Positions 21,501 to 40,622 of a stretch of DNA of 64,000 nucleotides are shown here, one piece after another (position 1 is the stretch's first letter; each line of letters starts with the position of its first letter). The notes beneath the pieces are model-generated. The model had not been told where the DNA came from and did no database searches. It was given only the letters and a program-made list of their open reading frames with translations. This DNA comes from Betaproteobacteria bacterium (GTDB lineage Bacteria > Pseudomonadota > Gammaproteobacteria > Burkholderiales > Usitatibacteraceae). Location of the stretch: positions 1 through 64,000 of the forward strand of contig JAEUMZ010000125.1 of the NCBI GenBank assembly GCA_016790765.1, read 5' to 3'. A program made the translations under genes and the position numbers.

Positions 21501-22894
21501 GCATCATGCTGCCGATGGACCTGTGGCGGGCGCTGGGCGGGTTCGACGAGCGCTATCTTCCCGCGTACTACGAGGACACCGACCTGGCGTTCCGCGTGCG
21601 GGAGGCCGGGCGCAAGGTCATCTACCAGCCGCATGCGGAAGTCGTGCATTTCGAGGGGCAGTCGTCCGGCACGGATATCACGCAGGGCGTCAAGCGGCAC
21701 CAGGCCGTCAACCAATCGGTGTTCGAAACGCGCTGGCGAAAAGTGCTGCAGGTCCACCGTGCGCACGGCGTTGCGCCGCAGCGCGAGCGCGACCGCACGG
21801 CAAAGCGCCGCGTGCTGGTCTTCGATGTGTGCATCCCGCGGCCGGACCGCGACTCCGGTTCGCTGCGGATGTTCGAGATGCTGCGCGCCATGCGCGCACT
21901 TGGCTGCCGCATCGCCTTTGTCGCCGACAACGGTTACCTGCCGGCCAACTATGTGCGCGACCTGCAATCCCTCGGCGTGGAGGTGTTGCATGCGCCGTAC
22001 ATCGATCCGCTGAGCGAAGCCATCGAACGCAACGCCCACGAGTTCGACACGGTGATCCTGTCGCGCGCCGCGGTGGCCGCCAAGTACGTCGACCTGGTGC
22101 GTGCGCGGATGCCCGAGGCCAAGCTCGTTTACGACACCGTGGACCTGCACTTCCTGCGCATGACGCGCGAAGCCGCGCTGGATGGCGGCGGGATCGAACA
22201 GGCGGCCGCCAAGGGCATGAAAGCCGTGGAGCTCTCGATCATCGCCAAGGCGGACCTGACACTGGTGGTGAGCGACTTCGAGCGTGCGTTGCTCGAAACC
22301 GAGGCCCCGCGCGCCCATGTGCAGGTGCTGAGCAACATCCACGATCCCGAGCCGGGCGAGGCCGCGTTCTCCCAGCGCAGCGGTGCCGTGTTCATCGGCG
22401 GCTTCCTGCATCCGCCCAACGTCGATGCGGTGCAGTGGTACGCGGAGCAAGTCTTGCCGATCCTGCGCCGGCGCGCACCGGGCTTCACCACCACCATCAT
22501 CGGCGGCGATGTGCCCGAGTCCCTGAAGCGACTCGGCGCCGCCGACCTCGTTTTCGCCGGTTTCGTGCCGGACGTGAAGCCGTTGTTCAATGCCGCGCGC
22601 GTCGCCATCTCCCCGCTGCGCTATGGCGCCGGCGTGAAGGGCAAGGTCAATCTGGCCATGCAGTATGGCGTGCCGGTGGTCGCGACGCCGTGTTCGGTCG
22701 AAGGCATGCATCTGGCGCATGGCCGGGATGTGTGGATCGCGCAGGACGCGGAGGCGTTTGCCGAGGCGATCCTTTCGCTCTGCAACGACGAAGGGACATG
22801 GCAACGATTGCGCGACGGCGGGGTTGCCAACATCCGGCGGCATTTTTCGCGCGATCACGCCAAGACCGTGCTCAAGGACATCCTGGATCTATAG
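18512..22894 (+). CDS. four-module glycosyltransferase (GT2-GT4-coil-GT2-GT4)
   Basis: Very large (1460-residue) predicted polysaccharide glycosyltransferase. Module 1 (about 1-265) is GT2 with IDVIIPVFRGY, VVVDDASPEP and LLNSDTEV. Module 2 (about 275-640) is GT4-like with LLFVSHQWGGGTEQHL and the donor-site stretch IPESFSFTLGTALRAGLPIVASRLGAF. A charged coil (about 670-745) ends in the RSRSWRLTAPLR motif often found in capsule glycosyltransferases. Module 3 (about 835-1075) is a second GT2 with ILVPVHGQ, VADDASPEP, LLNNDTIV and YYEDTDLAFRVREAG. Module 4 (about 1098-1460) is GT4 with FIGGFLHPPNVDAVQW and a PLRYGAGVKGK loop. GTG 18512 was chosen because it directly precedes the first GT2 strand. 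No signal peptide. Its position beside WbsX and XrtA genes suggests exopolysaccharide or O-antigen assembly; the sugars are unknown. Confidence 0.88.
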   Translation: MPPIDVIIPVFRGYSQTRSCIESVLAAPCASSRHVVVVDDASPEPAISSWLDQLASEGRIELLRNPANAGFVASVNRAMSMHPGRDAVLLNSDTEVSAGWLDRIVACATRHPDAASVCPLSNNATLASYPRIGESNPLPPGVSVAELAGVMAEANAGRDVAIPTSVGFCMWIARSAWEEIGGFDAASFGRGYGEENDWCLRASAAGYAHYLAADAFVFHEGEVSFGADAIAGRRHAQSVISQRDPAYAARIAKFFQDDPLRVLRRRADLLRLTASKLPKLLFVSHQWGGGTEQHLLDMAQLLDGRAQVLVMKPRGAHAVEIRWVTGHRNREEFCVYFNWISDGPAIADFLRSLAVARVHVHHIHGHAQEVLDLAAHLGVPLDITLHDYFPLTPQYHLDPGGALPAGVANAWGWSDSEWRSRMGTFLAGASRVIAPSQDLAGRVRAHLPGVPIEVWPHPSLGAPPVARPAKVLVLGGLTNDKGLQVLLACARDAKQRRLPLHFEILGHTQDPVPTFPDLPVTLLGSYPQDAVDLLVSLTRADVALFPAQIPESFSFTLGTALRAGLPIVASRLGAFPERLANWPGVELVEWDALPETWNAALTRLSGERPPLPGEMSAEVAAAYIARYLAPVAAKTRDCDCTDVAEHRYFAPRELPKDAELTLEHLYRGGVLCGHRPARSELEARIAKFDNQLRMARESADAAHEVARQTGERETANAERFRTAYEEQERNARAWREEYEKVIRSRSWRLTAPLRKAVRLVQYAAGLVGHWRRGLRVLPLQMAVAYRILRTQGPHALWMRLRQKFARSREQAALPAQSFKVEDTLLPLALPQSDAPRWSILVPVHGQHALTYTCLKSLAETCAGQAVEIIVADDASPEPVTAALAMVTGMRVLRNPSNLGFLRTCNAAAQHARGEYLVLLNNDTIVLGDWLQQLSAVFEQDPAAGLAGAKLLFPDGKLQEAGGIVWRDGSASNYGRGFDPRRPEFNYRREADYCSGACIMLPMDLWRALGGFDERYLPAYYEDTDLAFRVREAGRKVIYQPHAEVVHFEGQSSGTDITQGVKRHQAVNQSVFETRWRKVLQVHRAHGVAPQRERDRTAKRRVLVFDVCIPRPDRDSGSLRMFEMLRAMRALGCRIAFVADNGYLPANYVRDLQSLGVEVLHAPYIDPLSEAIERNAHEFDTVILSRAAVAAKYVDLVRARMPEAKLVYDTVDLHFLRMTREAALDGGGIEQAAAKGMKAVELSIIAKADLTLVVSDFERALLETEAPRAHVQVLSNIHDPEPGEAAFSQRSGAVFIGGFLHPPNVDAVQWYAEQVLPILRRRAPGFTTTIIGGDVPESLKRLGAADLVFAGFVPDVKPLFNAARVAISPLRYGAGVKGKVNLAMQYGVPVVATPCSVEGMHLAHGRDVWIAQDAEAFAEAILSLCNDEGTWQRLRDGGVANIRRHFSRDHAKTVLKDILDL

Positions 22895-26286: not shown

Positions 26287-29082
26287 TCACGGCGCTCGAA
26301 GGAGCTGCTCGATCTCCGCTTTTGTCGCGCCACTGGCGCCCTTGAGCGCCGATTCAAGTTCAGTGCGACCGGCAGCCTTGTCGCCCGAGGCGATCAATGC
26401 CTTGCCCAGGCGCAGGCGAATATCAGCGGAACCTGGAGACTGTGCGGCCGCCTGGCGAAGCAGGTCGAGGCCGCGCTTGGCTTCACCGCTTTGAACCAAC
26501 AGCCAGCCATACGTATCGAGCACCTCCGGCATGGTCGGCGCCTGCTGGAATGCGCGTTCGGCAAAGCCGAGCGCGGCGGGATCCCTGGCCTCCGCCAGCA
26601 CCCACGCGGTGTTGTTCAGGAGCGCCAGATTGTCCGGCTGCTGGGCCAGCAACTCCTTGAATCGGATCGCCGCAGCCGCGTAGTCCTTTCCCTGCGCCAG
26701 TTCGTTCGCAAGGTAAAAGCGGAACACACCGTCCTTCGGATGCTCTTTGAGCCAGCGGTTTGCCAGTTGGCCGGCTTCCGCAGTCTTGCCGGCGGCGATC
26801 AGGAACTGGTGCTGCTTGACGACCAGTTGGGGGTCGCTCTGGCGCTTCATGCCCTCCGCGTAGGCCGTGGCAGCGTCAGCGAACTTCTTCTGCGCTGCCA
26901 GTACTTCTCCTTCCAGCACGAAACCGGCGGCACTCTTCGGATGCAGGCGCTGCACCGAGCGGGACTCCTTGATGGCATCGTCGATGCGTCCGGCCGCGAC
27001 TTGGACGGCGACGATGTCGCGATGCGCGTCGAGCAGGTCCGGTTTCAGGCTCAACGCCTTGCGCAGGGCCTGGATCGGTGCGTCCACCTGCTTGGCTGCG
27101 TATTGGGCGGAGGCCAGCCGCATGAGGGGCAACGGGGCATCCGGCTGGGCGTCGACCATGCGCTTGTAGGTTTCGATCGCCTTGTCCGCCTCGCCGGCGG
27201 CCATCTGTGCAAGGCCGAGCGTGTCGGCGACACGTGCATCGTTCGGGATGGCGCGAGCCGCCTCCTGTGCCGCGGTCAGGGCGGCCCTGGCATCCTTGGC
27301 CCGGGTGTGAAACTTGACCAGGGCGATGCGCGCACCGACCGAGGCAGGGTTGACCTTGATGGCGCGCTCGATCGGGGCCAAGACATCTCGCGGCAGCGCC
27401 GCCATGCCGGCGAGGAAATCGGCGTAGGCGATGAGCGCCGCGTCATTGTTTGGTTCGCGTGCGAGGACCGAGTCATACCGGGCGCGGGCGTTTTCGGGCT
27501 TGCGATCGGCCAAGTCGAGGTTGGCGAGAATGCGCACGGCAGGCAGGTAGTTGAATTGCAGGTCCAGCGCCTTGTCGAGGCTCGCGCGCGCCTTGACCGG
27601 GTCATGCTGCGCCACCAGGATGGTGGCGCGGACGGTGTGCGTCAGCGGGTTGTCAGGCTGCTTTTTTTCCAGTTGGTCCGCCGCCTTGAGGGCCTTGTCG
27701 TAGGCGCGCTGGTTCAGCAACGTGGCGATCAGCGCAAGGTCGGCTTGGAACTGGCGCGCGTCCAGGCCGGAGGCTTGTTCAAGCTCCTCGATCGCGCGCG
27801 AGGATTCGCCGCCAGCCAGGCGGATTTGCGCCAGTCGTGTGCGGGTCGCGACACTGTCGCGTTCGAGGGCCAATGCACGCTCGTAATAGCGCGCCGCCTC
27901 CGAGTACTGCTGGTTCGCGAACGCCACCTCGCCGGCGCTGCGCAGGACGGCGGGGTCGTTGGGGGCGCTCTGCAGTGCGGGGGCCAGCACATCCTCAGCC
28001 TTGCCCGGTTGGCCTTTGCGCAAATAGGTCGCGACCAGGACGTTGCGCGCGTAGGTGCTATTCGGAAACTGCTTGATCACGCGGCGCAGGTAGTCTTCAG
28101 CGGTGGCGAACGCGCCCAGCGTGTAGGCAGTGGCCCCGGCCAGCAGCATGGACGGCGCATGGTCCGGGACGATGCGCAACACCTGCTGAATCGATTCCTG
28201 CGCACGGACGGGCGCGCCGTTGCGGAAGGCCAGAACGGCCTCGAGGTACTGTCCGCGGATGTCGCCGGGCAGCGCCTTTTTCATCGCGTCAATGCCGGTT
28301 GCCGCCGCGGCCAAGTCGTTGGTGGCCATTTGCAGCGTAATCAGCGCAAACCGCGCGTGGGCGTTGCGGGGTTGGCGTGCAATCAGGTCGGTGAAGCTCG
28401 CTTTGGCCGCGTCCAGCTTGCCCTGCAGGACCAGCAGGTCTCCCTGGAGCGCGACAGCCGGGGAATAGCCGGCGTTGCCCGCGAGGATCGCCTCATTGGC
28501 GGCCACGGCCTCGGGAAGTTTCCCGGTCGCCGCCAGCAATCGCGCGTCCATGACCCGAACGCGCAGCGCGCCGGGCTGGTCCCGATGCGCAGCCTCCAGA
28601 ACGCGCTGCGCCTCGCCGGGCTGGCCGAGAGCCAAGTAGGCTTCAGCCAGGATGGCACGAAACTCGGCGCGCGAAACGGGGTCCTCCGGCGTTGCATTGC
28701 CGAACTCCTCCACCAGCCGCTTTGAGTTTCCGGTAACGTGAAGACAGGTGGCGACGACGGGCAACAGTCGCGATTGTGATCCGCCGCTGGCCAATGCGCG
28801 ACGTGCATGGGTTTCGGCCGCGGTGAACTGGCCCAGTTCCAGAAGCGCCACGGCAAGCAGTTCGTGCACCTCGGTGCGCTCGCCCTGCTGGAGCGCGTTC
28901 TTGAGCTGTATGGCGGCGGTCGAATAGTCTTGCCGCGCCATGGCGTCGCGGCCGGCCTGCAGGGCGGCATCGGGCCCCCGGGGCCCTCCGCAGGCCGCCA
29001 AGGCAAGCGCCAGCGCTGCGCCGGTCCACACGACCCTGAGCATCGAGCGGCCATGCAGGCTGAACGACTCCGTCATTGTCAT
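26287..29082 (-). CDS. prsT: PEP-CTERM/XrtA system TPR-repeat lipoprotein PrsT
   Basis: 931-residue protein consisting almost wholly of tetratricopeptide-like repeats (about residues 40-925, each with A/G-x-A-E-x-A packing). The N-terminus has a lipoprotein signal ending LALALAACGG, with the lipid-modified Cys about 30 residues in, so it should be anchored in the envelope. PrsT proteins accompany XrtA systems and the PrsK/PrsR pair and are thought to scaffold exopolysaccharide export. The start at 29082 overlaps the prsR stop by four bases. Internal ATGs at 29076 and 29043 are alternatives. Confidence 0.92.
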   Translation of the reverse strand: MTMTESFSLHGRSMLRVVWTGAALALALAACGGPRGPDAALQAGRDAMARQDYSTAAIQLKNALQQGERTEVHELLAVALLELGQFTAAETHARRALASGGSQSRLLPVVATCLHVTGNSKRLVEEFGNATPEDPVSRAEFRAILAEAYLALGQPGEAQRVLEAAHRDQPGALRVRVMDARLLAATGKLPEAVAANEAILAGNAGYSPAVALQGDLLVLQGKLDAAKASFTDLIARQPRNAHARFALITLQMATNDLAAAATGIDAMKKALPGDIRGQYLEAVLAFRNGAPVRAQESIQQVLRIVPDHAPSMLLAGATAYTLGAFATAEDYLRRVIKQFPNSTYARNVLVATYLRKGQPGKAEDVLAPALQSAPNDPAVLRSAGEVAFANQQYSEAARYYERALALERDSVATRTRLAQIRLAGGESSRAIEELEQASGLDARQFQADLALIATLLNQRAYDKALKAADQLEKKQPDNPLTHTVRATILVAQHDPVKARASLDKALDLQFNYLPAVRILANLDLADRKPENARARYDSVLAREPNNDAALIAYADFLAGMAALPRDVLAPIERAIKVNPASVGARIALVKFHTRAKDARAALTAAQEAARAIPNDARVADTLGLAQMAAGEADKAIETYKRMVDAQPDAPLPLMRLASAQYAAKQVDAPIQALRKALSLKPDLLDAHRDIVAVQVAAGRIDDAIKESRSVQRLHPKSAAGFVLEGEVLAAQKKFADAATAYAEGMKRQSDPQLVVKQHQFLIAAGKTAEAGQLANRWLKEHPKDGVFRFYLANELAQGKDYAAAAIRFKELLAQQPDNLALLNNTAWVLAEARDPAALGFAERAFQQAPTMPEVLDTYGWLLVQSGEAKRGLDLLRQAAAQSPGSADIRLRLGKALIASGDKAAGRTELESALKGASGATKAEIEQLLRAP

Positions 29083-30422
29083 TTGCGCATTCCGAATCGA
29101 TCGAGGAGCTCATACAGGGTGGGGCGGCTGATCCCCAGTGCCTCCGCGGCCCGGCTCAGATTGCCGCCCGATATCGCCACCGCGCGGCCAACCGCCTCCC
29201 GCTCGGCCTCATCCCGGACCTGGCGCAGGTTGAGTACCCTGCCGGAGGCGTCGGGAACCAGGCCCAAATGGGATTCGCCGATGACGTCCCCATCCGACAG
29301 GATGAGGGCACGTCGCAGTGTACTCTCGAGCTCTCGCACGTTGCCGGTCCAGGGTTGGCGCTCGATGGCAGCCAGCGCGTCAGTGCCCAGCTTGCGCGCG
29401 GCGACGCGTTGCTCTGCGGCAAGCCGCCGGATCAGGGATTGGGCAATCAATGCGGCGTCCCCCGGCCGTGCGCGGAGTGGGGGAATGGAGATGACGATCT
29501 CGGCAAGCCGGTAGTACAAGTCCTCGCGGAACAGCCCCTTGGAAATCAGGGCCTTGAGGTCCTGATGCGTGGCACAAACGACCCGGACATCGACACGGAT
29601 CTCCTCGCGTCCGCCAACGCGCTCGATGACGCGCTCCTGCAAGAAGCGCAGCAACTTGACCTGCAATGGCAGGGGCATGTCGCCGATTTCGTCTAGGAAC
29701 AGGGTCCCTCGGTTTGCGGTTTCGATCTTGCCGGGCGTCTGGCGGGTCGCCCCGGTAAAGGCTCCCCGTTCAAATCCGAACAGCTCGCTTTCAAGCAGGT
29801 TTTCTGGAATGGCGGCGCAATTGATGGCCACGAAACGCGCATCGCGGCGCGCCGAGAGCTGGTGGCACGCGCGCGCAATGAGTTCTTTTCCGGTCCCCGA
29901 TTCTCCGAGGATCATCACGGTCACATCCGAAGGTGCAATCTTTTCCGCCAGTGCGCATGCCCGCAGGGTTTCAGGATCCTGGGTGATGAGGCCGGCAATC
30001 CGTTCCTGCGGCTGGTGGGTGTCGTGAAGGCGGCGGTTTTCGACCTGCAACGCGTGCATGCGGAATGCACGGTCGATGATCACGCGCAACAGATCCGGCT
30101 CGAAGGGCTTGGCGTGGAAGTCGAACGCTCCGAGGGCAATCGCCTCCAGCGCGTTGGCGCGGTCGCTTTGACCGGTCAGGACGATCACTTTGGCATCCGG
30201 CGTGAGCTCGAGGATCGTCCGCAGCAGCTTCAATCCTTCCGTCGGATCATCTGGACGCGGTGGAAGGCCGAGGTCGAGTGTGATGACGGCGGGCTCGTGG
30301 CGGCGAATCTGAGCAATCGCACTTTCAGCGTCGTGCGCGGTGATCGTCTCGATCGCATCGAATGCCCAGCGCATCTGTTTTTGCAGCGCCGGGTCGTCTT
30401 CGATGAGGAGAAGCTTCTCCAT
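29079..30422 (-). CDS. prsR: PEP-CTERM-box response regulator PrsR, sigma-54 activator
   Basis: NtrC-type response regulator, 447 residues from ATG 30422. The receiver domain has acidic residues at 8-10, phospho-acceptor Asp50 and Lys105. The AAA+ domain has Walker A GESGTGKE (173-180) and the sigma-54 contact loop GAFTGA (220-225). A Fis-type helix-turn-helix ends the protein (LSRAAEALGISRPTLYELLDRFG). It would be phosphorylated by PrsK, encoded just upstream, and activate RpoN promoters such as the one found upstream of the PEP-CTERM gene. A GTG at 30437 overlapping the prsK stop is the alternative start. Confidence 0.95.
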   Translation of the reverse strand: MEKLLLIEDDPALQKQMRWAFDAIETITAHDAESAIAQIRRHEPAVITLDLGLPPRPDDPTEGLKLLRTILELTPDAKVIVLTGQSDRANALEAIALGAFDFHAKPFEPDLLRVIIDRAFRMHALQVENRRLHDTHQPQERIAGLITQDPETLRACALAEKIAPSDVTVMILGESGTGKELIARACHQLSARRDARFVAINCAAIPENLLESELFGFERGAFTGATRQTPGKIETANRGTLFLDEIGDMPLPLQVKLLRFLQERVIERVGGREEIRVDVRVVCATHQDLKALISKGLFREDLYYRLAEIVISIPPLRARPGDAALIAQSLIRRLAAEQRVAARKLGTDALAAIERQPWTGNVRELESTLRRALILSDGDVIGESHLGLVPDASGRVLNLRQVRDEAEREAVGRAVAISGGNLSRAAEALGISRPTLYELLDRFGMRK

Positions 30423-30433
30423 GTGCCCCGTGC

Positions 30434-32500
30434 TCACGTCGGGGCGCCTTCGGCTCCACTCAGCAAAGGAAACTCGACGCGAAACGTCGAACCGGCGAAC
30501 GGCACGCTGCGCACCTCGATCCGGCCGTTGATCGATTTCAGGTACTGCGCGCTCTCGTACATGCCGATGCCCATGCCGTTGGGTTTGGTGGTCTGGAAAG
30601 GGTGAAACAACTTTTCGCGCACAAACGTTTCGCTCATGCCGACGCCGCTGTCCGAGACCTCCAGGACTGCGCGACCATCCGCCACAGTGAGGCGCACACC
30701 GATTGTAGACGAAGGCGAGGTGGAGGCTTCCATCGCGTTCTGGATCAGGTGACCCGCGACGCGCTCGACGCGGTCGGGATGCCCCGCCACGATCACGTCC
30801 GGACGAATGGATTGATCGACGGCCGCACCGATGGCGGCCTTTCCCTCCACCACCTTGCGGAGGATCGACGACAGATCGATGCGGCGCGCCGGGTCCGCCG
30901 GTACTGAGCCGCTGCGCAGCTGCAGCATGAGCTGCTGCATGCGCGATACCGCATGTTGCACGGTTTCGAGCATGTCGGACTGGAATTCGGGATTCTGGCG
31001 ATGGCGCTCTGCATTGCGGACCAGGAGGTCAAGCTGCGCGACGAGGTTCTTGAGGTCATGAACGACATAGGCCGACATGCGGTTGAATGCATCGAATCGC
31101 TCGGCCTCAACCAATTGCGCCTTCACGCGCAGTTCCGAGAGGTGGACTGCAAGTTGTGTGCCGGCCATTTTGAGGATGTCGCGGACCTCCCAGCCAATTT
31201 CGACCTTGGTCAGTGCATGATGCAGGATGACAAACCCGGTCAACTCGCTTCCGGTCGCCAGCGGCACGACGATCCATGCCTCGTCATAGTTGAGCAGCCA
31301 TGCGGGCAACTCGAGACCAGCGTATTTGGCCTTGCGTGCGCGGAACTCGTCGAGGTCGATGACCCAATGTGTTCGGTCGAGAAACGATACCAGCGAGGAT
31401 CCGAATGGCTCTGCACAACTGACGCTTGGGGCCTCCAGTCCGTCGATTGCACAGTATTCATGGTCGAGGCGGATCCAAAGCTGCCCGCCGGGGCTCTCCA
31501 CGAGTGAACCCAGGGCGCGAATCATCCGCTGGTGATCTGTGTCGCCTAGCGAGCGGCTTGCAAGTTGCTCGGTGAAGCGTGACCATTCGGTTCGGTAATC
31601 GTACCGGTAGGTGAACAGGTTCTTTGCGATCGACACACGCAGTGCGGCGCGCCACTGTCCCGACAGCGCGATGCCCACCAGGGCCAGCAACGCCGCAAAG
31701 ACGAAGGCCACCTTGAGCGTTCCGCCCCAATCGCCGCCAAAGTACACCACCCAATAGGCGCCCGCAGAGATCAGGACGAGGTAGATGCCGGCGAGGACGA
31801 TCGAGGTCACTCGAAAGGCGGCAACATGTGACAACTGCAGCTCATCGCGCCAGCCGCGCGAACGGGCCGCAGAAATCGCCACAATGAGAGCGGCAAGAGC
31901 ATGCACGATTCCGCGCGCACTCCAGAGTTGTGGATCCGGCTCGCGATACAGCACGCCACTCGAGTAGTAAATCAAATCAAAGACCAACAACGCGCCAAGT
32001 CCCAGAACAAACGGCTTGATGACCCACCAGCGTGGCGTGCCGGCTTGCGCGAGGAACTGTTCCGTCATGACCAGGCCGGCAATGGTGAGCGCCAAGGCAA
32101 GGTAATAGCCGGTGGTGCTGTCCTCCGAGGGCTGCAGCAGGGCCGTGAAGAGCACGCCCACGGCAATGGCCGCCGTCAACCACCTGCGACCCGCAACCCC
32201 CGAGGTCACCGCAACAGTCGCGGGACTTCTGGCACGCAACAACACCACGATGAACAGGAGCCACACCCCCAGGCGAAAGGTGTCGAGCTGCCAATGCCAA
32301 GTCGCAAGAATTGGGGCAGGGTCGTATGCGAGCCATGCGGCAGAAGCAGTCCATAGCGCCGAAGCCACGGAGGCTCCTACATGCAACCAATGTCCTGTAC
32401 CGCGATGCTGACGGAAGATGAAGACCGCGGAATGGCCTGCAAAAAACAGACTCGCCAGCAAATAGCACCAAAAGGCGGGCTGCAGGGAGGTATTGGACAT
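30434..32500 (-). CDS. prsK: PEP-CTERM system histidine kinase PrsK
   Basis: Membrane histidine kinase of 688 residues. The N-terminal ~290 residues hold about eight hydrophobic helices, a GAF-like domain follows (about 320-470), and the kinase core has its phospho-acceptor His481 in AYVVHDLKNLVAQ. The ATPase domain contains LIQNAMEAS (N box), DSGVGM and GMGIGMY (G boxes). Partner of PrsR, with the genes adjacent or slightly overlapping. ATG 32500 begins MSNTSLQPAFWCYLLASLFF, placing a membrane helix right at the N-terminus as in the family. It is separated from the upstream PEP-CTERM gene by a strong terminator, so prsK needs its own promoter in 32501-32637; I could not identify one. Confidence 0.94.
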   Translation of the reverse strand: MSNTSLQPAFWCYLLASLFFAGHSAVFIFRQHRGTGHWLHVGASVASALWTASAAWLAYDPAPILATWHWQLDTFRLGVWLLFIVVLLRARSPATVAVTSGVAGRRWLTAAIAVGVLFTALLQPSEDSTTGYYLALALTIAGLVMTEQFLAQAGTPRWWVIKPFVLGLGALLVFDLIYYSSGVLYREPDPQLWSARGIVHALAALIVAISAARSRGWRDELQLSHVAAFRVTSIVLAGIYLVLISAGAYWVVYFGGDWGGTLKVAFVFAALLALVGIALSGQWRAALRVSIAKNLFTYRYDYRTEWSRFTEQLASRSLGDTDHQRMIRALGSLVESPGGQLWIRLDHEYCAIDGLEAPSVSCAEPFGSSLVSFLDRTHWVIDLDEFRARKAKYAGLELPAWLLNYDEAWIVVPLATGSELTGFVILHHALTKVEIGWEVRDILKMAGTQLAVHLSELRVKAQLVEAERFDAFNRMSAYVVHDLKNLVAQLDLLVRNAERHRQNPEFQSDMLETVQHAVSRMQQLMLQLRSGSVPADPARRIDLSSILRKVVEGKAAIGAAVDQSIRPDVIVAGHPDRVERVAGHLIQNAMEASTSPSSTIGVRLTVADGRAVLEVSDSGVGMSETFVREKLFHPFQTTKPNGMGIGMYESAQYLKSINGRIEVRSVPFAGSTFRVEFPLLSGAEGAPT

Positions 32501-32640
32501 GAAGTGCAGGTTCCCCGCCGGCACGGCGGATTCGGCGATGGGTCAGTTGCCGGGATTATCCCGTGTATTGGCCACACCCGGCAGACACCCAACAGGTCGC
32601 ATCGGACCTGCAATCAAATGACCGTCCAGCAACGGGTAAA

Positions 32641-32669
32641 AAAAAACCCCGGAAACCGGGGTTTTTTTT
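32641..32669 (-). terminator. bidirectional intrinsic terminator after the PEP-CTERM gene
   Basis: CCCCGG (32647-32652) pairs with CCGGGG (32656-32661) around an AAA loop, flanked by an A tract on the left and eight T on the right, so it works from either side. On the minus strand it ends the PEP-CTERM gene, whose stop is 19 nt away. Confidence 0.9.
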
Positions 32670-32687
32670 ATGAACACAGTGCTTGGA

Positions 32688-33338
32688 TTAATGGCCCTTC
32701 CGCGTCCGCGCAACCCAACCCAAAGCCACCAACCCGATTCCAAACAGTGCCAGAGTACCGGGCTCAGGAACGTTGGTCACCATGCTGAACCCTGTTGATC
32801 CGGCATTTGAATGGGAGATGGTCGCAACGTGGGTCAACGTAAAGCCGCCCGTGGTGTCGACCGTAGCATGGGTTGTACCGTTGAACGCACCGGTATACGG
32901 ACCGAACGAACCCGATGCCACATTGTTGAAAAGTGACGTGAATTGGGCCGTTCCGCTCGTGCTGCCAGTCACCGATGTCGACGCCAGCATGCTCGGTCCG
33001 GCGGGCTGCGTCAGGCCGGTTTCCATGAGCGAAATGGTCAGCGTCCCGCCCCGGCGCGAGGTTGCATTGAACGAAACCAGATTCAGGATTGCCGGTCCAG
33101 ACAAGGCTGGACTGTTGGAAATCCCCGCCGTGAAATTGAAGATCCATGACCCCAAGCTTCCGAACCAGGATACAGCTCCAGACGACGAGTCGAGATCACC
33201 TACACCACCATCTGTGATCGTGACGCTGTTACCGCCCCCGGCGTCGAGCTTGAGAATCAGCGCGGCATGTGCGGGTGTCCCCGTACAAAATACCAATGCA
33301 AATGCGGCGGAAGCAGTAATTTGCTTGAGCATTTTCAT
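32688..33338 (-). CDS. PEP-CTERM sorting domain-containing protein, XrtA substrate
   Basis: 216-residue exported protein. The N-terminus MKMLKQITASAAFALVFCTGTPAHA is a classic Sec signal peptide with an AHA cleavage site. The C-terminus has the full PEP-CTERM signal: NVPEPGT, a hydrophobic helix (LALFGIGLVALGWVA) and a basic tail RTRKGH. The central part is rich in Thr, Ser and Gly with no catalytic motif, as in many exopolysaccharide-associated PEP-CTERM proteins, so only sorting can be predicted. Exosortase A encoded in the same window should process it. A near-perfect sigma-54 promoter lies 60-75 bp upstream. Confidence 0.93.
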   Translation of the reverse strand: MKMLKQITASAAFALVFCTGTPAHAALILKLDAGGGNSVTITDGGVGDLDSSSGAVSWFGSLGSWIFNFTAGISNSPALSGPAILNLVSFNATSRRGGTLTISLMETGLTQPAGPSMLASTSVTGSTSGTAQFTSLFNNVASGSFGPYTGAFNGTTHATVDTTGGFTLTHVATISHSNAGSTGFSMVTNVPEPGTLALFGIGLVALGWVARTRKGH

Positions 33339-33462: not shown

Positions 33463-33731
33463 TCAGGGCGACATGCTGGGAAGATGTTGTAACGTTTTCC
33501 GACGAGTTTTGGGTCGATCCTTCAGTTTCCTGCTGATCGTGGGAGGTGACGCGTGACAACTGGGCCACCGGACGTGGAATTCTCCTGCCAGTGCGCCATA
33601 GGTGTAAGAAATCCTGACAATCCGGTAACGGCTGGTATGTGAAGCCTGAAAAAGCATGCTGCAATGCACAATGTGCTAGAGTCATTCGTGACTCGGCATT
33701 TTGGGTGGGGCGCACTCCTTGGACCTGCAAA

Positions 33732-33806
33732 ATGACAATTCACCAAACTCGGGCAACCATGAATCCAGGAACTTCTAAGGCGACCGGATCCTTTCCAATG
33801 CAATAG
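33732..33806 (+). CDS. putative threonine-rich leader peptide of thrS
   Basis: A 24-codon ORF from ATG 33732 to TAG 33804-33806 contains five Thr codons (33735, 33747, 33756, 33771, 33783), about 21% of the peptide. It lies directly upstream of the hairpins at 33809-33864 and of thrS. Its stop codon is two bases before the segment that can form an antiterminator. Base 33784, inside the last Thr codon, begins CCGGAT, which can pair with ATCCGG at 33815-33820. The Shine-Dalgarno sequence is weak (TGGA about 9 nt upstream). Function is inferred from arrangement and composition, and the peptide has no recognised homologue. Confidence 0.5.
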   Translation: MTIHQTRATMNPGTSKATGSFPMQ

Positions 33807-33808
33807 TT

Positions 33809-33864
33809 CCGCGCATCCGGCAGACCAGTTAGGTTCAGAAAGCGCGGCAAATCCGCGCTTTTTT
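33809..33864 (+). promoter_or_regulatory. putative transcription attenuator of the thrS operon (antiterminator/terminator)
   Basis: Segment 2 CCGCGC (33809-33814), segment 3 GCGCGG (33842-33847) and segment 4 CCGCGC (33853-33858) can pair as 2:3 or 3:4. The 3:4 hairpin extends to a 9-bp stem (33839-33847 with 33853-33861), a five-base loop and six T (33859-33864), a good intrinsic terminator 25 nt before the thrS GTG. Segment 2 starts two bases after the leader stop codon. A ribosome reaching the stop would cover segment 2 and allow termination, while one stalled at Thr codons would leave it free for 2:3 pairing. The rest of the gap 33414-33731 shows the decamer copy and a possible extended -10 (TG-C-TAGAGT, 33674-33682) but no gene. 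Confidence 0.6.
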
Positions 33865-33889
33865 CATTCCATTACTCGAAGAGACTTCC

Positions 33890-35809
33890 GTGATATCCAT
33901 AACGCTCCCCGACCAGAGCCGAAAACAATTTGTCGGTCCGCTCACCGTGCGGGACGTCGCGACCGCCATTGGGCCGGGCCTGGCAAAGGCTGCTATCGCG
34001 GGCAAGGTCAATGGCAAATTGGTCGACTTGGACCATTTGCTGACATGTGACGCGTCAGTTGCGATCGTGACGGAACGCGACACCGATGGGCTGACCATCA
34101 TTCGGCATTCGACCGCACACCTGCTGGCCTATGCGGTCAAAGAGCTGTTTCCGGAAGCGCAAGTGACCATCGGCCCCGTCATCGAGAACGGGTTTTACTA
34201 CGACTTCTCGTATAGCCGCCCATTTACGCCCGAAGACTTGAAGGCGATCGAGGCCAGGATGGGCGAGATCGCAAAACGGGACCTTCCGGTGACCCGGAAA
34301 GTAGTGCCTCGAGATGAAGCGGTGGCATATTTCAGCGGCATTGGTGAGCACTACAAGGCCGAAATCATCGCGTCGATCCCGGCCGGTGAAGAGGTCTCTC
34401 TCTACACGGAAGGTGAATTCACGGACCTGTGCCGCGGGCCCCATGTGCCATCAACCGGGAAGATCAAAATCTTCAAGTTGATGAAGGTGGCCGGCGCCTA
34501 TTGGCGTGGGGACTCCAAGAACGAGATGCTTCAGCGCATCTATGGTACTGCGTGGACGAGAAAGGAGGACCAAGACGCGTACTTGCACATGCTTGAGGAG
34601 GCCGAAAAGCGCGATCACCGCAAGCTCGGCAAGCAACTGGATCTGTTTCACCTCCAAGAAGAGGCGCCGGGAATGGTGTTTTGGCATCCAAAGGGATGGG
34701 CGCTTTGGCAACAAGTGGAACAGTACATGCGACGCGTGTACCAGGACAACGGATATCAGGAAATTCGATGCCCGCAAATCCTCGACAAGTCCCTTTGGGT
34801 TCGCTCCGGCCACTGGGAGAACTACAAGGACAACATGTTCACAACGGAATCGGAAAAGCACGATTTCGCGATCAAGCCGATGAACTGCCCGGGCCATGTC
34901 CAGGTTTTCAATTCTGACCTTCGCTCATACCGAGACTTGCCGTTGCGTTACGGGGAGTTTGGCGTTTGCCATCGCAACGAACCTTCCGGTGCCCTGCATG
35001 GCGTCATGCGGGTGCGGGGTTTCGTTCAGGACGATGGACACATCTTCTGCCGCGAGGAGCAGATCAAAGATGAATGTGTGTCTTTCAATCGACTCGCAAT
35101 GTCGGTGTATGAGGACTTTGGGTTCAAGGACATTGCGATCAAGATTGCACTGCGGCCAGAAAAGCGGATTGGCACAGACGACGATTGGGACAAGGCGGAA
35201 GGCGCATTGAGGGAGGCGTTGCGGGCATGTGGCGCAGAGTGGGTTGAGTTGCCCGGGGAAGGAGCCTTCTATGGACCAAAAATCGAGTACCACATGAAGG
35301 ACTCCATTGGCCGAAACTGGCAGTGTGGAACCATGCAGGTCGACTTCTTCATGCCTGGGAGGTTGGGTGCGGAATTTGTCGACGAACACAGCGGCCGACA
35401 AACTCCAGTCATGCTGCACCGCGCAATCGTCGGCTCCCTGGAACGCTTCCTTGGCATCTTGATTGAGAACTATGCAGGTGCACTGCCCCTATGGCTGGCC
35501 CCGGTCCAAATAGTTGCGATGAACGTGACTTCGGAGCAAGTCACGTTTGTTGATAGTGTGGTCAAGGCATTGAAAACACATGGATTTCGCGTTCAGGCCG
35601 ATTTGCGAAACGAGAAGATTTCCTATAAAATTCGTGAACATAGCCTGCAAAAGATTCCATACCAGCTCATTTTGGGCGACAAGGAAATGCAGGCGAATTT
35701 CGTCACGGCTCGAATCCGGGATGGCAAAGGCGGGGGTACGAATCTTTCGCCAATGTCCTTGGACGAGTTCGTTTCGCATTTGCAAGTCGAGTTGGCGGCC
35801 AAGAGATAG
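33890..35809 (+). CDS. thrS: threonine--tRNA ligase
   Basis: Charges tRNA-Thr and edits mis-acylated Ser-tRNA. The 639-residue protein has an N-terminal TGS domain (1-62), the editing domain with [16 protein letters not shown] and the catalytic core. Class II motifs and zinc ligands are visible in [51 protein letters not shown] and [17 protein letters not shown]. The anticodon-binding domain closes the protein. GTG 33890 is preceded by GAAGAG. First gene of thrS-infC-rpmI-rplT-pheST-ihfA, and the upstream leader suggests control by threonine supply. Confidence 0.97.
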
Positions 35810-35882: not shown

Positions 35883-36407
35883 ATAGCTACTGACAAATCC
35901 GTCCGGATCAATGCAGAAATTGCCGGTATTCCCGAGGTCCGCTTGCTTGGACCTGAAGGGGAGCAAATCGGTATCGTTACTCTGGGCGAAGCAAATCGGC
36001 ACGCAGAAGAGCTGGAATTGGATTTGGTCGAAATCGCACCGACCGCCAAGCCTCCCGTGTGCCGAATCATGGACTTCGGCAAATACAAGTACCGTGAGGC
36101 AAAGAAAGCCCACGAAGCCAAGCTGAAGCAGAAGCAGATCCAAGTCAAGGAAGTGAAGTTTCGGCCCGGCACCGATGATGGCGACTACAACATCAAGGTT
36201 CGAAATCTTCGACGTTTCCTTGAAGAAGGTGACAAGACCAAGATTACGCTGCGCTTTCGTGGACGTGAAATGGCGCATCAGGAGTTGGGAGTTGCGCTCC
36301 TGAAACGCGTGGAAGCGGACTTGGCGGAATATGGCCAGGTCGAACAGTTTCCAAAGATGGAGGGTCGCCAAATGATCATGATGGTCGGCCCAAAGAAGAA
36401 GCACTGA
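35883..36407 (+). CDS. infC: translation initiation factor IF-3, AUA start codon
   Basis: IF-3 binds 30S, prevents premature 50S joining and rejects non-canonical start codons. The 174-residue product reads (M)[22 protein letters not shown], matching betaproteobacterial IF-3 N-termini, and continues with [23 protein letters not shown] and [17 protein letters not shown]. No ATG, GTG or TTG lies at the homologous start. ATA 35883 is six bases after GGGAG (35872-35876). Non-standard initiation (AUU in E. coli) is how IF-3 represses its own mRNA. The first standard codon, TTG 35943, would lose 20 conserved residues. Confidence 0.94.
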
Positions 36408-36525: not shown

Positions 36526-36723
36526 ATGCCCAAGATGAAGACCAAGAGCGGGGCCGCAAAGCGCTTCAAAGCGCGCGCAAGCGGATCCATCAAACGCTCG
36601 ATGGCGTTCAAGCGCCATATCCTGACCAAGAAGACGACAAAGAACAAGCGGCAGCTTCGAGGTACAGCAGAAATCCATTCCACCAACATGGGGCACGTTC
36701 GCGCCATGTTGCCGTACGCGTAA
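36526..36723 (+). CDS. rpmI: 50S ribosomal protein L35
   Basis: 65-residue basic ribosomal protein beginning [33 protein letters not shown], a near-canonical L35. Start ATG 36526 has AAAGAG upstream. An earlier in-frame start at 36451 would add a non-conserved extension. The 118-nt gap after infC could hold the L20-binding operator known in E. coli; I did not resolve a fold. Confidence 0.96.
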
Positions 36724-36734
36724 GGGAGCGAAGC

Positions 36735-37094
36735 ATGCCAAGAGTCAAACGTGGTGTGACGGCACGCGCGCGTCACAAGAAAGTTCTGAATGCGGCCAAG
36801 GGTTTTCGCGGTCGTCGTAGTTCTGCCTTTCGAATTGCCAAAGAAGCGGTAATGAAGGCTGGGCAATATGCGTACCGCGATCGTCGCAACAAGAAGAGGG
36901 TATTTCGTGCACTTTGGATTGCCCGGATCAATGCAGCCGTTCGCGAGGGCGGCATGACGTACTCGGCTTTCATGAACGGACTGAAAAAGGCGGCGATCGA
37001 TGTCGATCGCAAGGTACTGGCGGATCTGGCCGTCATGGACAAGCCCGCCTTTGCACGATTTATGGAGCAAGCGAAAGCCGGGCTTGCGGCATAG
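36735..37094 (+). CDS. rplT: 50S ribosomal protein L20
   Basis: 119-residue primary 23S rRNA-binding protein. It begins [55 protein letters not shown], which is strongly conserved. L20 commonly represses rpmI-rplT translation. It lies 11 nt after rpmI and ends 23 nt before an intrinsic terminator. Confidence 0.97.
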
Positions 37095-37214: not shown

Positions 37215-38228
37215 ATGTCCTCACTCGAACAGATACTTATGGACGCACGCTTGTCGATGTCAAAGGCAAGCAGTCTTCCTGAGTTGGAACAAGCCAAGGC
37301 CCGTTTCCTGGGCAAGAACGGGATCGTCACTGCACAGCTCAAAGGGCTGTCCTTGCTTGACGTGGAAGCCAGAAAACTCGCCGGCGCAGCCGTCAACCGT
37401 TGCAAGGCCGAGATCGAATTGCTGGTGGAATCGGCAAAAGAACGAATCGCCGAGGCGGATCTTCAGGCCAAGCTGGCTGAGGAGTCCATTGACGTCACAT
37501 TGCCAGGTCGAAACCCCGGCATGGGCAGCCTTCACCCAGTATCCCTTGCGCTCGAACGCATCGAGAAGTTGTTTGCAAGCGTGGGGTTTTCCGTTGCAGA
37601 CGGACCGGAGATCGAAACGGACGAGAACAACTTCGCCATGCTCAACATGCCCGTGGACCATCCTGCCCGATCAATGCAGGATACCTTCTACCTGAAGGGC
37701 ACATCGAATGTCTTGCGGACTCACACTTCGCCGGTCCAGATTCGCTACATGCAGGAGCATTCCAAGAAGTGTGGACCTCCCTATCGAATCATTTGCCCCG
37801 GGCGGGTCTATCGATGCGACCACGATGCCACTCATTCCCCGATGTTCCACCAAATAGAGGGACTGTGGGTGGACACCGGAATTAGCCTCGCAGACCTCAA
37901 GGCGACATTGACTCAGCTCTTTCGCATGTTCTTTGAACGCGAGTCCATCAACATTCGCTTCAGGCCGTCGTACTTTCCATTTGTGGAACCCGGTGTTGAA
38001 GTGGATATGGAGTGGGAGAGCAAAGGGGGTAAGGTGAAATGGCTCGAGATCGGCGGCGCCGGTGTTGTTCATCCGCAGGTGCTTCGTAACGGAGGCGTCG
38101 ATCCGGAAAGGTACTCCGGGTTCGCGTTCGGAATGGGGCTGGATCGGCTGGCGATGCTCAAGTATGGCGTCAACGATTTGCGCCTGTTCTTCGAAAATGA
38201 CATGCGTTTCTTGCGCCAGTTCACTTGA
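37215..38228 (+). CDS. pheS: phenylalanine--tRNA ligase alpha subunit
   Basis: Catalytic subunit of the (alpha-beta)2 phenylalanyl-tRNA synthetase, 337 residues. An N-terminal coiled coil (about 1-85, with LEQAKARFLGKNGIVTAQLKGL) precedes the class II core: TDENNFAMLNMPVDHPARSMQDTFYLK, RTHTSPVQIRYM, PGRVYRCDHDATHSPMFHQIEGLWVD and GGAGVVHPQVLRNGGVDPERYSGFAFGMGLDRLAMLKYG. ATG 37215 gives the usual MS-x-LEQI start; TTG 37170 would add non-conserved residues. Shine-Dalgarno complementarity is poor. pheT follows after 12 nt. Confidence 0.97.
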   Translation: MSSLEQILMDARLSMSKASSLPELEQAKARFLGKNGIVTAQLKGLSLLDVEARKLAGAAVNRCKAEIELLVESAKERIAEADLQAKLAEESIDVTLPGRNPGMGSLHPVSLALERIEKLFASVGFSVADGPEIETDENNFAMLNMPVDHPARSMQDTFYLKGTSNVLRTHTSPVQIRYMQEHSKKCGPPYRIICPGRVYRCDHDATHSPMFHQIEGLWVDTGISLADLKATLTQLFRMFFERESINIRFRPSYFPFVEPGVEVDMEWESKGGKVKWLEIGGAGVVHPQVLRNGGVDPERYSGFAFGMGLDRLAMLKYGVNDLRLFFENDMRFLRQFT

Positions 38229-38240
38229 GGAGCGAACGAC

Positions 38241-40622
38241 ATGAAAATTTCAGTCAATCGACTCAGGGAACTGGTACCGACCACGATGTCGACTGAGGAG
38301 CTCGCGCAGTCCCTCACCATGGCGGGATTGGAAGTAGAGGCAATAGACACATTGGCGCCTCAGTTTTCCAAAGTCTGTGTAGCCAGGATTGTCAGCGCAG
38401 ACCCGCACCCCAATGCGGAAAAACTCAGGGTTTGCCGTGTCGAAGTAGGAGGCAAGGACCTGCTGCAGATCGTTTGCGGCGCACCAAATGCACGCGTGGG
38501 CTTGACGGTCCCGTGCGCGAGGGTGGGCGCGAAATTGCCGGGATTGGAAATCAGGGCCGCAAAGCTGCGTGGCGTTGAGTCCTTCGGAATGCTCTGCTCA
38601 GCAGCTGAACTGGGACTGTCATCTGACCAATCAGGCCTGATGGAGCTTGCCCCTGAGGCGGAGCCCGGAGTGGACATCCGGCAATGGCTTGGCCTTGACG
38701 ATGAAATCTTGACCTTGAAGGTCACGCCAAATCGCGGAGATTGCCTGTCCTACATCGGTGTGGCGCGCGATTTTGCCGCGGTGACGGGTTTGGCAACTGC
38801 ATTTGATGTCTCGAATCCAGTTGAGCCCACCGACCTCACGTTGACCGTCCCTGTCACCATTTCCAATCGTGAGGCATGCGGACAGTATTTCGGACGCGTA
38901 TTGACCGGACTTGACATCAATGCAAGCAGCCCCGAATGGTTGCGCCGCAGGCTGGAGCAGGCTGGCCTGAGGCCGATTTCGCCGTTGGTCGACATTACCA
39001 ACCTGGTCATGATCGAGATCGGCCAGCCGATGCATGCCTTTGATTTCTCGAAGCTGAAGGGAGGAATTGACGTTAGATTTGCGCGGGCCGGTGAACAACT
39101 CAAGTTGTTGACGGGCGTTGAAGCGGCGCTAGACAAAGACATCTTGGCGATATCTGACGAAACCGGCCCGATCGCTGCTGGCGGTGTAATGGGCGGCGAG
39201 TCGACCATGTGTTCGGTCACGACATCCAACGTGTTTTTCGAGGCGGCATGGTTTTCGCCCGAAGCCATTCGCGGCAAGGCAAAGGTGCTGGGCGTACATT
39301 CAGATGCGGCATATCGATTCGAACGTGGCGTGGATCCGAGTTTGGCCCGGCGAGCCATCGAATGGGCGACTCAACTCGCGCGTGACATTTGCGGCACTTC
39401 CACGACACAAATCGGTCCCATCATTGCCGCAAGAGGTTCCCTGCCTCAAAACCAAGTCACGCAAGTCCGCTACAAGCGCGTGGAGCACCTGATCGGCATG
39501 CCGATCGAAGTGCGTACCCAGATTGAGACCTTGAAGAGGGTCGGCTGCCAAGTCGATGCAATGGAAGCGGCAATGCAAGTTGTGGCGCCGAGCCATCGTT
39601 TCGATCTTGGGATAGAAGAAGACTTCATCGAGGAAATTGCGCGAATTCACGGATACGATCGAATTCCGGAACGCTTGCCCGAATCCACTCTCGCCATGTT
39701 GCCGGTTCCTTCCAGCTATACCGATCCATCAACGATCAAGCGGATGGTGGCTAGACTGGGCTACCACGAGGTGATCAACTACAGTTTCGTCGATCCTGAG
39801 TGGGAAATGGATCTGTGCAGCAACACGGGCGCCGTGAGTTTGGAAAACCCAATTTCTTCCAACATGACGGTGATGCGTTCAAGCCTCGTTGGCGGGCTCA
39901 TTGCAAGTCTGCGTTACAACCTGGATCAAGGTGAATCGCGAGTCAGGTTGTTTGAAGTAGGGCGGTGCTTTGTCGGCTCGGCTGCGGATGCAACTGTTCA
40001 ACCCGAGCGCTTGGGATTGGTCGCCTATGGGCCGAGGGTGCCTGAACAGTGGGGGGAGGGCGGACAGAAAGGGCCCCGGGCGGAATTTTTCTCTGTCAAG
40101 GGTGACTTGGAACTCTTGCTGGGTCAACGTCGAATCGAGTTCGAGCCTGCCATACACCCGGCTTTCCACCCTGGCAGGTCTGCATCGATTCGAATTGAGG
40201 GACATGTTGCCGGCGTCATCGGAGAACTGCATCCGCGATGGGTCCAAAAGTACTCACTCAGGACGGCTCCAATCTTGGCGGAGATTGGTACCGGGGTCAT
40301 CAGTCAAGGATCGAAGTTTCGTTTCGCTGACTTTTCACGCATGCAGCGCGTTAGGCGAGACATCGCATTGAATTTCTCCGAGTCCTGTTCATTTGCGTCG
40401 ATCAGATCTGCGGTATGGGGCATGAACATCCCGGTTCTATGCGAGTTTGAGCCATTCGATATTTATCGCGGACCGAGCCTTCCTTCCGGACAAAAAAGTG
40501 TTGCGTTTCGGGTAGTTATGCAGGATACTGAGAGAACTTTGACAGATATCGACGCCGACTTGATAGTGTCGAAAATTATTGATGTCTTAGGTGAGAAGTT
40601 TGGCGCAACTATCAGAAAATAA
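38241..40622 (+). CDS. pheT: phenylalanine--tRNA ligase beta subunit
   Basis: 793-residue beta subunit with tRNA-binding and editing domains. Recognisable parts are the N-terminal MKISVNRLRELVP, an EMAP-type tRNA-binding domain (about 40-150, GKDLLQIVCGAPNARVGLTVPCARVGAKLPG), the B3/B4 editing domain, B5 (HRFDLGIEEDFIEEIARIHGYDRIPE), the catalytic-like domain with NPISSNMTVMRSSLVGGL, and a C-terminal ferredoxin-fold anticodon-binding domain (FSRMQRVRRDIAL). GAGGAG precedes the ATG. Codon use is noticeably more AT-rich than in the flanking 1-20 kb genes. Confidence 0.97.
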   Translation: MKISVNRLRELVPTTMSTEELAQSLTMAGLEVEAIDTLAPQFSKVCVARIVSADPHPNAEKLRVCRVEVGGKDLLQIVCGAPNARVGLTVPCARVGAKLPGLEIRAAKLRGVESFGMLCSAAELGLSSDQSGLMELAPEAEPGVDIRQWLGLDDEILTLKVTPNRGDCLSYIGVARDFAAVTGLATAFDVSNPVEPTDLTLTVPVTISNREACGQYFGRVLTGLDINASSPEWLRRRLEQAGLRPISPLVDITNLVMIEIGQPMHAFDFSKLKGGIDVRFARAGEQLKLLTGVEAALDKDILAISDETGPIAAGGVMGGESTMCSVTTSNVFFEAAWFSPEAIRGKAKVLGVHSDAAYRFERGVDPSLARRAIEWATQLARDICGTSTTQIGPIIAARGSLPQNQVTQVRYKRVEHLIGMPIEVRTQIETLKRVGCQVDAMEAAMQVVAPSHRFDLGIEEDFIEEIARIHGYDRIPERLPESTLAMLPVPSSYTDPSTIKRMVARLGYHEVINYSFVDPEWEMDLCSNTGAVSLENPISSNMTVMRSSLVGGLIASLRYNLDQGESRVRLFEVGRCFVGSAADATVQPERLGLVAYGPRVPEQWGEGGQKGPRAEFFSVKGDLELLLGQRRIEFEPAIHPAFHPGRSASIRIEGHVAGVIGELHPRWVQKYSLRTAPILAEIGTGVISQGSKFRFADFSRMQRVRRDIALNFSESCSFASIRSAVWGMNIPVLCEFEPFDIYRGPSLPSGQKSVAFRVVMQDTERTLTDIDADLIVSKIIDVLGEKFGATIRK

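Follow-up and report, generated by a model that had tools for sequence, protein, structure and literature searches.

How is thrS, the gene for threonyl-tRNA synthetase (ThrRS), controlled in this betaproteobacterium? In the window, by which we mean the whole 64,000-nucleotide stretch that was analyzed, thrS is followed on its own strand by three further genes of the thrS-infC-rpmI-rplT operon and then by pheS and pheT. The assignments are as follows:

33890-35809, + strand: thrS, threonyl-tRNA synthetase, with a GTG start (TIGR00418, 697.7 bits)
35943-36407, + strand: infC, translation initiation factor IF-3 (TIGR00168)
36526-36723, + strand: rpmI, ribosomal protein L35 (TIGR00001)
36735-37094, + strand: rplT, ribosomal protein L20 (TIGR01032)
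37218-38228, + strand: pheS, downstream of the operon (TIGR00468)
38241-40622, + strand: pheT, downstream of the operon (TIGR00472)

A first-pass annotation, made from the sequence of the window, had proposed that a short ORF rich in Thr codons and an intrinsic terminator just ahead of thrS form an attenuator that senses the supply of threonyl-tRNA. We read positions 33690-33864 as a predicted threonine attenuator of the ribosome-mediated kind, a diverged copy within a family that stands before betaproteobacterial thrS, with a probability of roughly 0.7.

Leader, terminator, and competing pairings in the window

The elements of the putative attenuator are listed here in order:

33674-33682, + strand: extended -10-like element TGCTAGAGT, a possible leader promoter, seen as a pattern match only
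33732-33806, + strand: leader ORF MTIHQTRATMNPGTSKATGSFPMQ, followed by its stop codon; 24 codons, five of them Thr, from the translated sequence
33783-33785, + strand: ACC, the last Thr codon, six sense codons ahead of the stop
33784-33789, + strand: putative segment 1, CCGGAT, which can pair with ATCCGG at 33815-33820, from the sequence
33809-33820, + strand: putative segment 2, CCGCGC (33809-33814) followed by ATCCGG, from the sequence and by comparison with same-genus leaders
33837-33847, + strand: segment 3, the 5′ arm of the terminator, AGAAAGCGCGG, including GCGCGG at 33842-33847, from sequence, folding, and conservation
33853-33864, + strand: segment 4, CCGCGC (33853-33858), with the T-run TTTTTT (33859-33864); the 3′ half of the intrinsic terminator, whose stem covaries in relatives

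The ORF lies exactly where the first-pass annotation had placed it, with Thr codons at 33735, 33747, 33756, 33771, and 33783 and a stop codon at 33804-33806. Two alternative starts are in frame, GTG 33705 (7 Thr in 33 codons) and ATG 33759 (2 Thr in 15). When 33690-33837 was shuffled with its dinucleotides preserved, 0.42% of the shuffles gave an ATG-initiated ORF that ended 5-75 nt before the hairpin and contained five or more Thr (p about 0.004), and 0.02% gave at least seven Thr from any start codon (p 0.0002), the content of the window frame read from GTG 33705. The leader ORF and segment 2 arose jointly in 2 of 20,000 shuffles, a count for which both features were picked after being seen. 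As these tests were shaped by the observations of the first-pass annotation, they are support for the window ORF and not proof of it. Both doubts that had accompanied the proposal still hold: instead of following one another, the Thr codons are scattered and unclustered, and the ribosome-binding site of the ORF is weak. A promoter scan found no sigma-70 consensus promoter. The regulatory codons of this leader are most likely, from their position, ACT 33771-33773 and ACC 33783-33785.

The CCGCGC, GCGCGG, and CCGCGC segments were likewise recovered at 33809-33814, 33842-33847, and 33853-33858, and either of the two pairings proposed for them can fold. Hairpin 3:4 has an energy of -15.6 kcal/mol and nine pairs, or 11 counting G-U and the U of the tract; the competing 2:3 structure (33807-33848, segment 4 left out) reaches -13.2 kcal/mol. 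The terminator is as it had been described, with a 9-bp stem and six T, and the 25 nt that separate its T-run from the thrS GTG at 33890 are hairpin-free. A simple terminator scan of the window did not list the 3:4 hairpin. Folding of the whole leader was unremarkable against shuffles (z -0.57) and is uninformative. For the spacer, the window antiterminator scored z -2.4 against shuffles, and the 6 nt by which segment 2 matches the terminator arm are weak evidence when taken alone (p about 0.04-0.05). Segment 2 adjoins the leader stop, beginning at 33809 two bases past its last base (33806), a spacing that had been correctly noted. An additional pairing between CCGGAT and ATCCGG had also been suggested; both sequences are present and the last Thr codon, ACC 33783, does overlap CCGGAT, but in the window this 1:2 pairing is no better than chance, with a folding energy of -7.0 kcal/mol for 33776-33822.

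If these elements act together, transcription would start upstream of the leader ORF, and the outcome would depend on where the leader ribosome halts. When charged threonyl-tRNA is plentiful, the ribosome would reach the stop at 33804 and cover CCGCGC 33809-33814; with segment 2 covered, hairpin 3:4 would form and transcription would end near 33864. When threonyl-tRNA is scarce, the ribosome would stall at the last Thr codons (33771/33783) and leave segment 2 free, so that 33809-33814 could pair with 33842-33847, hairpin 3:4 would not form, and RNA polymerase would continue into thrS-infC-rpmI-rplT. The promoter, the translation of the leader, termination, antitermination, and the response to threonine are features of the window leader that we infer. 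The retention of a strong terminator ahead of essential genes speaks for some means of relieving it.

Threonine-rich leaders before thrS in relatives

We sampled the regions upstream of thrS in the window's genus and family, in 80 named genomes, and in further Burkholderiales families. Typical leaders of the window's genus and family begin MTPLTT, MRPPTT, or MVPPTT. The type beginning MTPRTTT occurs in Massilia, Undibacterium, Cupriavidus, Acidovorax, and Comamonas, and MFRTTTEAGN in Azoarcus and Aromatoleum; MFRTRTTT opens another Thr-rich type found before betaproteobacterial thrS. The leaders of Vogesella, Aquitalea, and Deefgea are MFKRTTTTRISR, MKHWRTTTTRHSHAS, and MLLTDTTTSVISG, respectively. 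At 17-64 nt past the relatives' leaders stands a hairpin with arms AAAGCGCGG and CCGCGCTTT, or AAAGTGCGG and CCGCACTTT, with a T-run. From the last Thr to the stop, the relatives have a median of five sense codons, with six as the commonest value, and in many same-genus leaders CCGCGCGG directly follows the stop.

Counted without use of the conserved motif, an ORF with at least three Thr in four residues that ends before the terminator was present at 31 of 84 loci, against 0.93 ± 0.85 in shuffles. The same test on these 84 loci gave at most six for any other residue, and the enrichment is thus seen for Thr only. A rule fitted to short leaders accepted 57 of 91 terminator-bearing loci (2.8 ± 2.0 in shuffles), with qualifying leaders in 20 of the 32 families sampled and at 20 of the 25 loci of the window's own family. 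Of 399 genomes, 33 had the core pattern GGTTATGANACCGCNNACTAC, each a single time, and the reversed pattern used as a control matched once. Among 30 loci of other Gammaproteobacteria, none had a Thr-rich leader with a terminator before thrS. At the level of the betaproteobacterial group, the proposal that threonyl-tRNA supply switches the thrS operon through attenuation is strongly supported by this recurrence across families and by its restriction to Thr; for the window copy the case is less direct.

The terminator stem of the relatives covaries. Counted outward from the loop in 79 hairpins, pair five is C-G 49 times and U-A 25 times, and pair six is G-C 66 times and A-U nine times; such alternation is compensatory change. 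The spacer between the leader stop and the hairpin pairs with the 5′ arm over 7.1 bases, compared with 6.1 in shuffled sequences (p 5e-5). Across the whole set of relatives, the antiterminator energy was no better than in shuffles (mean z -0.18). Pairing between the Thr-codon core and the spacer exceeded that with shuffled spacers, both over 91 leaders (p 5e-4) and in the type of the window's family (p 4e-4), and would fit a 1:2 stem in the relatives. A cross-species permutation of spacers and arms was set aside: own pairs scored z about -5, but reversed-sequence controls were nearly as good at z about -4, so the effect is mostly one of composition and is not counted as proof.

The window copy and alternative explanations

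How the window copy relates to these leaders differs between its two halves. A profile built from 20 same-family leaders matched the window terminator (nhmmer, 25.7 bits, E 4e-10) and gave no match upstream of it. The terminator lies at position -53, and the family type with AAAGCGCGG or AAAGTGCGG sits 37-120 nt before thrS. Aligned pairwise with the relatives' leaders from either ATG 33732 or ATG 33759, the window leader did not beat shuffles. The conserved core (PRT, FRT, or PLT with ACCGCNNACTAC or CGAACTAC) is absent from it, and a search of the window's genome at one mismatch returned no core motif. The one match of the conserved motif elsewhere in the window, CCGCNNACTAC at 21561, is at chance level and was rejected. 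With the core missing and no leader alignment, the window leader is no recognizable descendant of the common leader peptide. The check in relatives suggested in the first-pass annotation thus came out divided: the terminator, its covariation, and the Thr content at this position are conserved, but the sequence of the short ORF is not. Because the window ORF is not recognizably homologous to those of relatives, the lack of ORF conservation that had been named in advance as refuting the proposal is, at the level of sequence, what we found.

These results favor most, among the alternatives, one in which the terminator was conserved but the leader was replaced in the window's lineage, the ORF being no sensor and the hairpin serving as a constitutive partial terminator or under some other control. 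Only the terminator is recognizably conserved, the upstream sequence and upstream neighbors are wholly unlike those of relatives, and even some same-family leaders keep few Thr codons (MIPLTSWGSLLG and MRPPTRGFQDR). Against this, the window reading frame that runs to the stop holds more Thr than chance would give, CCGCGC directly follows the stop much as CCGCGCGG does in leaders of the same genus, and a strong terminator ahead of essential genes would be expected to be lost if nothing regulated it. We regard this alternative as unlikely, at perhaps one chance in five. The window shares with its relatives the terminator, its distance to thrS, and the location of a frame rich in Thr, and the six codons that separate its last Thr from the stop equal their commonest value. 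Moreover, the window ThrRS is only 68-76% identical to those of its genus relatives, which makes a long separate history of this lineage plausible. The window leader is probably a working, diverged, and atypical member of the thrS threonine-attenuator family, as judged from these shared features.

The hairpin could instead end an upstream unit, such as the tRNA-Val of many relatives, or an independent small RNA. At loci L004, L006, L007, L008, L189, L191, L215, and L216, a tRNA gene lies directly 5′ of the thrS leader, which in the same-genus loci is tRNA-Val by sequence context; the window has no tRNA gene there, and none near 33-34 kb. The terminator nevertheless persists in the window and in several relatives that lack the tRNA, the tRNA-bearing relatives have a Thr-rich ORF separating the tRNA from the terminator, and the upstream gene of the window is on the opposite strand. 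With neither a gene nor a tRNA of the + strand ending upstream, the window terminator does not close any visible upstream unit on this strand, and we consider this explanation very unlikely.

Some observations on the neighborhood belong here. The upstream tRNA and the thrS leader of those relatives may be cotranscribed. At L215:49-219, Rfam RF02194 (HPnc0260) scored above threshold on the strand opposite the tRNA and thrS leader, and this match is probably the complement of the tRNA. In L006 (genome G003), repeated GC-rich hairpin-like units of the form AGCGCGGCGGT..TTGTGCCAGCACTTT are inserted between the terminator and thrS. Divergent from thrS in the window, on the minus strand at 29079-33338, are genes for the PEP-CTERM response regulator PrsR, the histidine kinase PrsK, and a PEP-CTERM protein, which were not found beside thrS at the other same-genus loci compared. 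Since upstream neighbors vary among all members of the genus, synteny gives no conclusion on recent rearrangement.

The codons of the conserved core suggest a further alternative, in which the leader acts through arrest by the nascent chain or by slow codons (CGA-ACU, and RPP in part of the family) and not through threonyl-tRNA supply. The core codons are near-invariant, with CCG in 30 of 30, CGA in 45 of 47, and ACU in 42 of 47, a sign that selection may act on the RNA or on certain codons besides the peptide; some leaders, too, have only one or two Thr. Neither motif is present in the window, however, runs of three to five Thr codons, present in many families, speak for Thr, and the core-spacer pairing can also explain the invariance of the codons. 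Arrest of this kind is improbable, at about one in twenty. Two details of these leaders may be recorded. The CGA codon is the Arg codon that precedes the conserved Thr (for example, in L013, L041, L077, and L189), and the core shows hardly any synonymous variation, for which RNA pairing or slow decoding of CGA may be the cause. The MRPPTT and MVPPTT leaders of the window's family (L005, L015, L016, L018-L020, and L024-L029) contain a Pro-Pro pair, a possible site of an EF-P-dependent pause.

In Escherichia coli, likewise a proteobacterium, thrS is controlled by an operator through which ThrRS represses translation, with no leader peptide and no terminator. Translational autorepression of this type, with ThrRS binding a tRNA-like operator before the thrS start, has hardly any likelihood here. 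In its favor, ThrRS is the gene product and the mode is known in E. coli; against it, only 25 nt and no hairpin lie between T-run and start codon, and what is conserved is a Thr-rich ORF with a terminator.

Relation to known regulatory systems

The threonine attenuator that we propose has well-known counterparts. The E. coli pheST attenuator, in which the leader peptide PheM, with its many cognate residues, governs the choice between terminator and antiterminator, likewise precedes an aminoacyl-tRNA synthetase operon; it differs in responding to Phe and not Thr, in controlling pheST, and in belonging to another lineage with an unrelated leader sequence. The E. coli thr operon attenuator (thrL; RF00506, Thr_leader) likewise combines a Thr-codon leader peptide with an intrinsic terminator, but its targets are biosynthesis genes, and its leader is rich in codons for Ile as well as Thr. 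RF00506 matched the leaders of two relatives with 30.5 and 26.4 bits, short of its threshold of 55, and gave no match in the window even at E 1. No Rfam family matched a leader of the window or its relatives above threshold. Systematic predictions of leader-peptide attenuators, synthetase genes included, were reportedly made by Lopatovskaya et al. in 2010 and Vitreschak et al. in 2004.

In Bacillus subtilis, threonyl-tRNA supply sets thrS transcription through termination and antitermination at a T-box (PMC2494555), a system that differs in that the tRNA binds the leader RNA directly and there is no leader peptide. No Rfam match to a T-box was found in the window. Among open full texts, the B. 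subtilis T-box was the only such control of thrS to turn up, and none described an attenuator with a leader peptide for this gene; Lopatovskaya et al. 2010 may contain a prior prediction. The kind of regulation is well known; its combination with thrS in betaproteobacteria appears undescribed as far as checked. We propose tentatively, as somewhat less than an even bet, that these loci make up a widespread and undescribed family of threonine attenuators on thrS, in which the window would have kept the terminator and the logic and rebuilt the leader peptide.

If this is true, thrS would be under three unrelated controls in bacteria (protein operator, T-box, and leader peptide), and threonine supply in betaproteobacteria would also set the levels of IF-3, L35, and L20 through one operon. 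The window would then be a case of an attenuator that keeps its terminator and its amino-acid specificity with a leader peptide altered beyond recognition. Being short and recurrent, the leaders lend themselves to tests in genera that can be cultured, such as Massilia, Cupriavidus, Vogesella, and Azoarcus. Outside the betaproteobacteria, two Lysobacterales/Rhodanobacter loci, L059 and L110, have short ORFs (MSTTSSQR and MATTRFHD) ahead of a terminator upstream of thrS, and these may be further cases of the same control.
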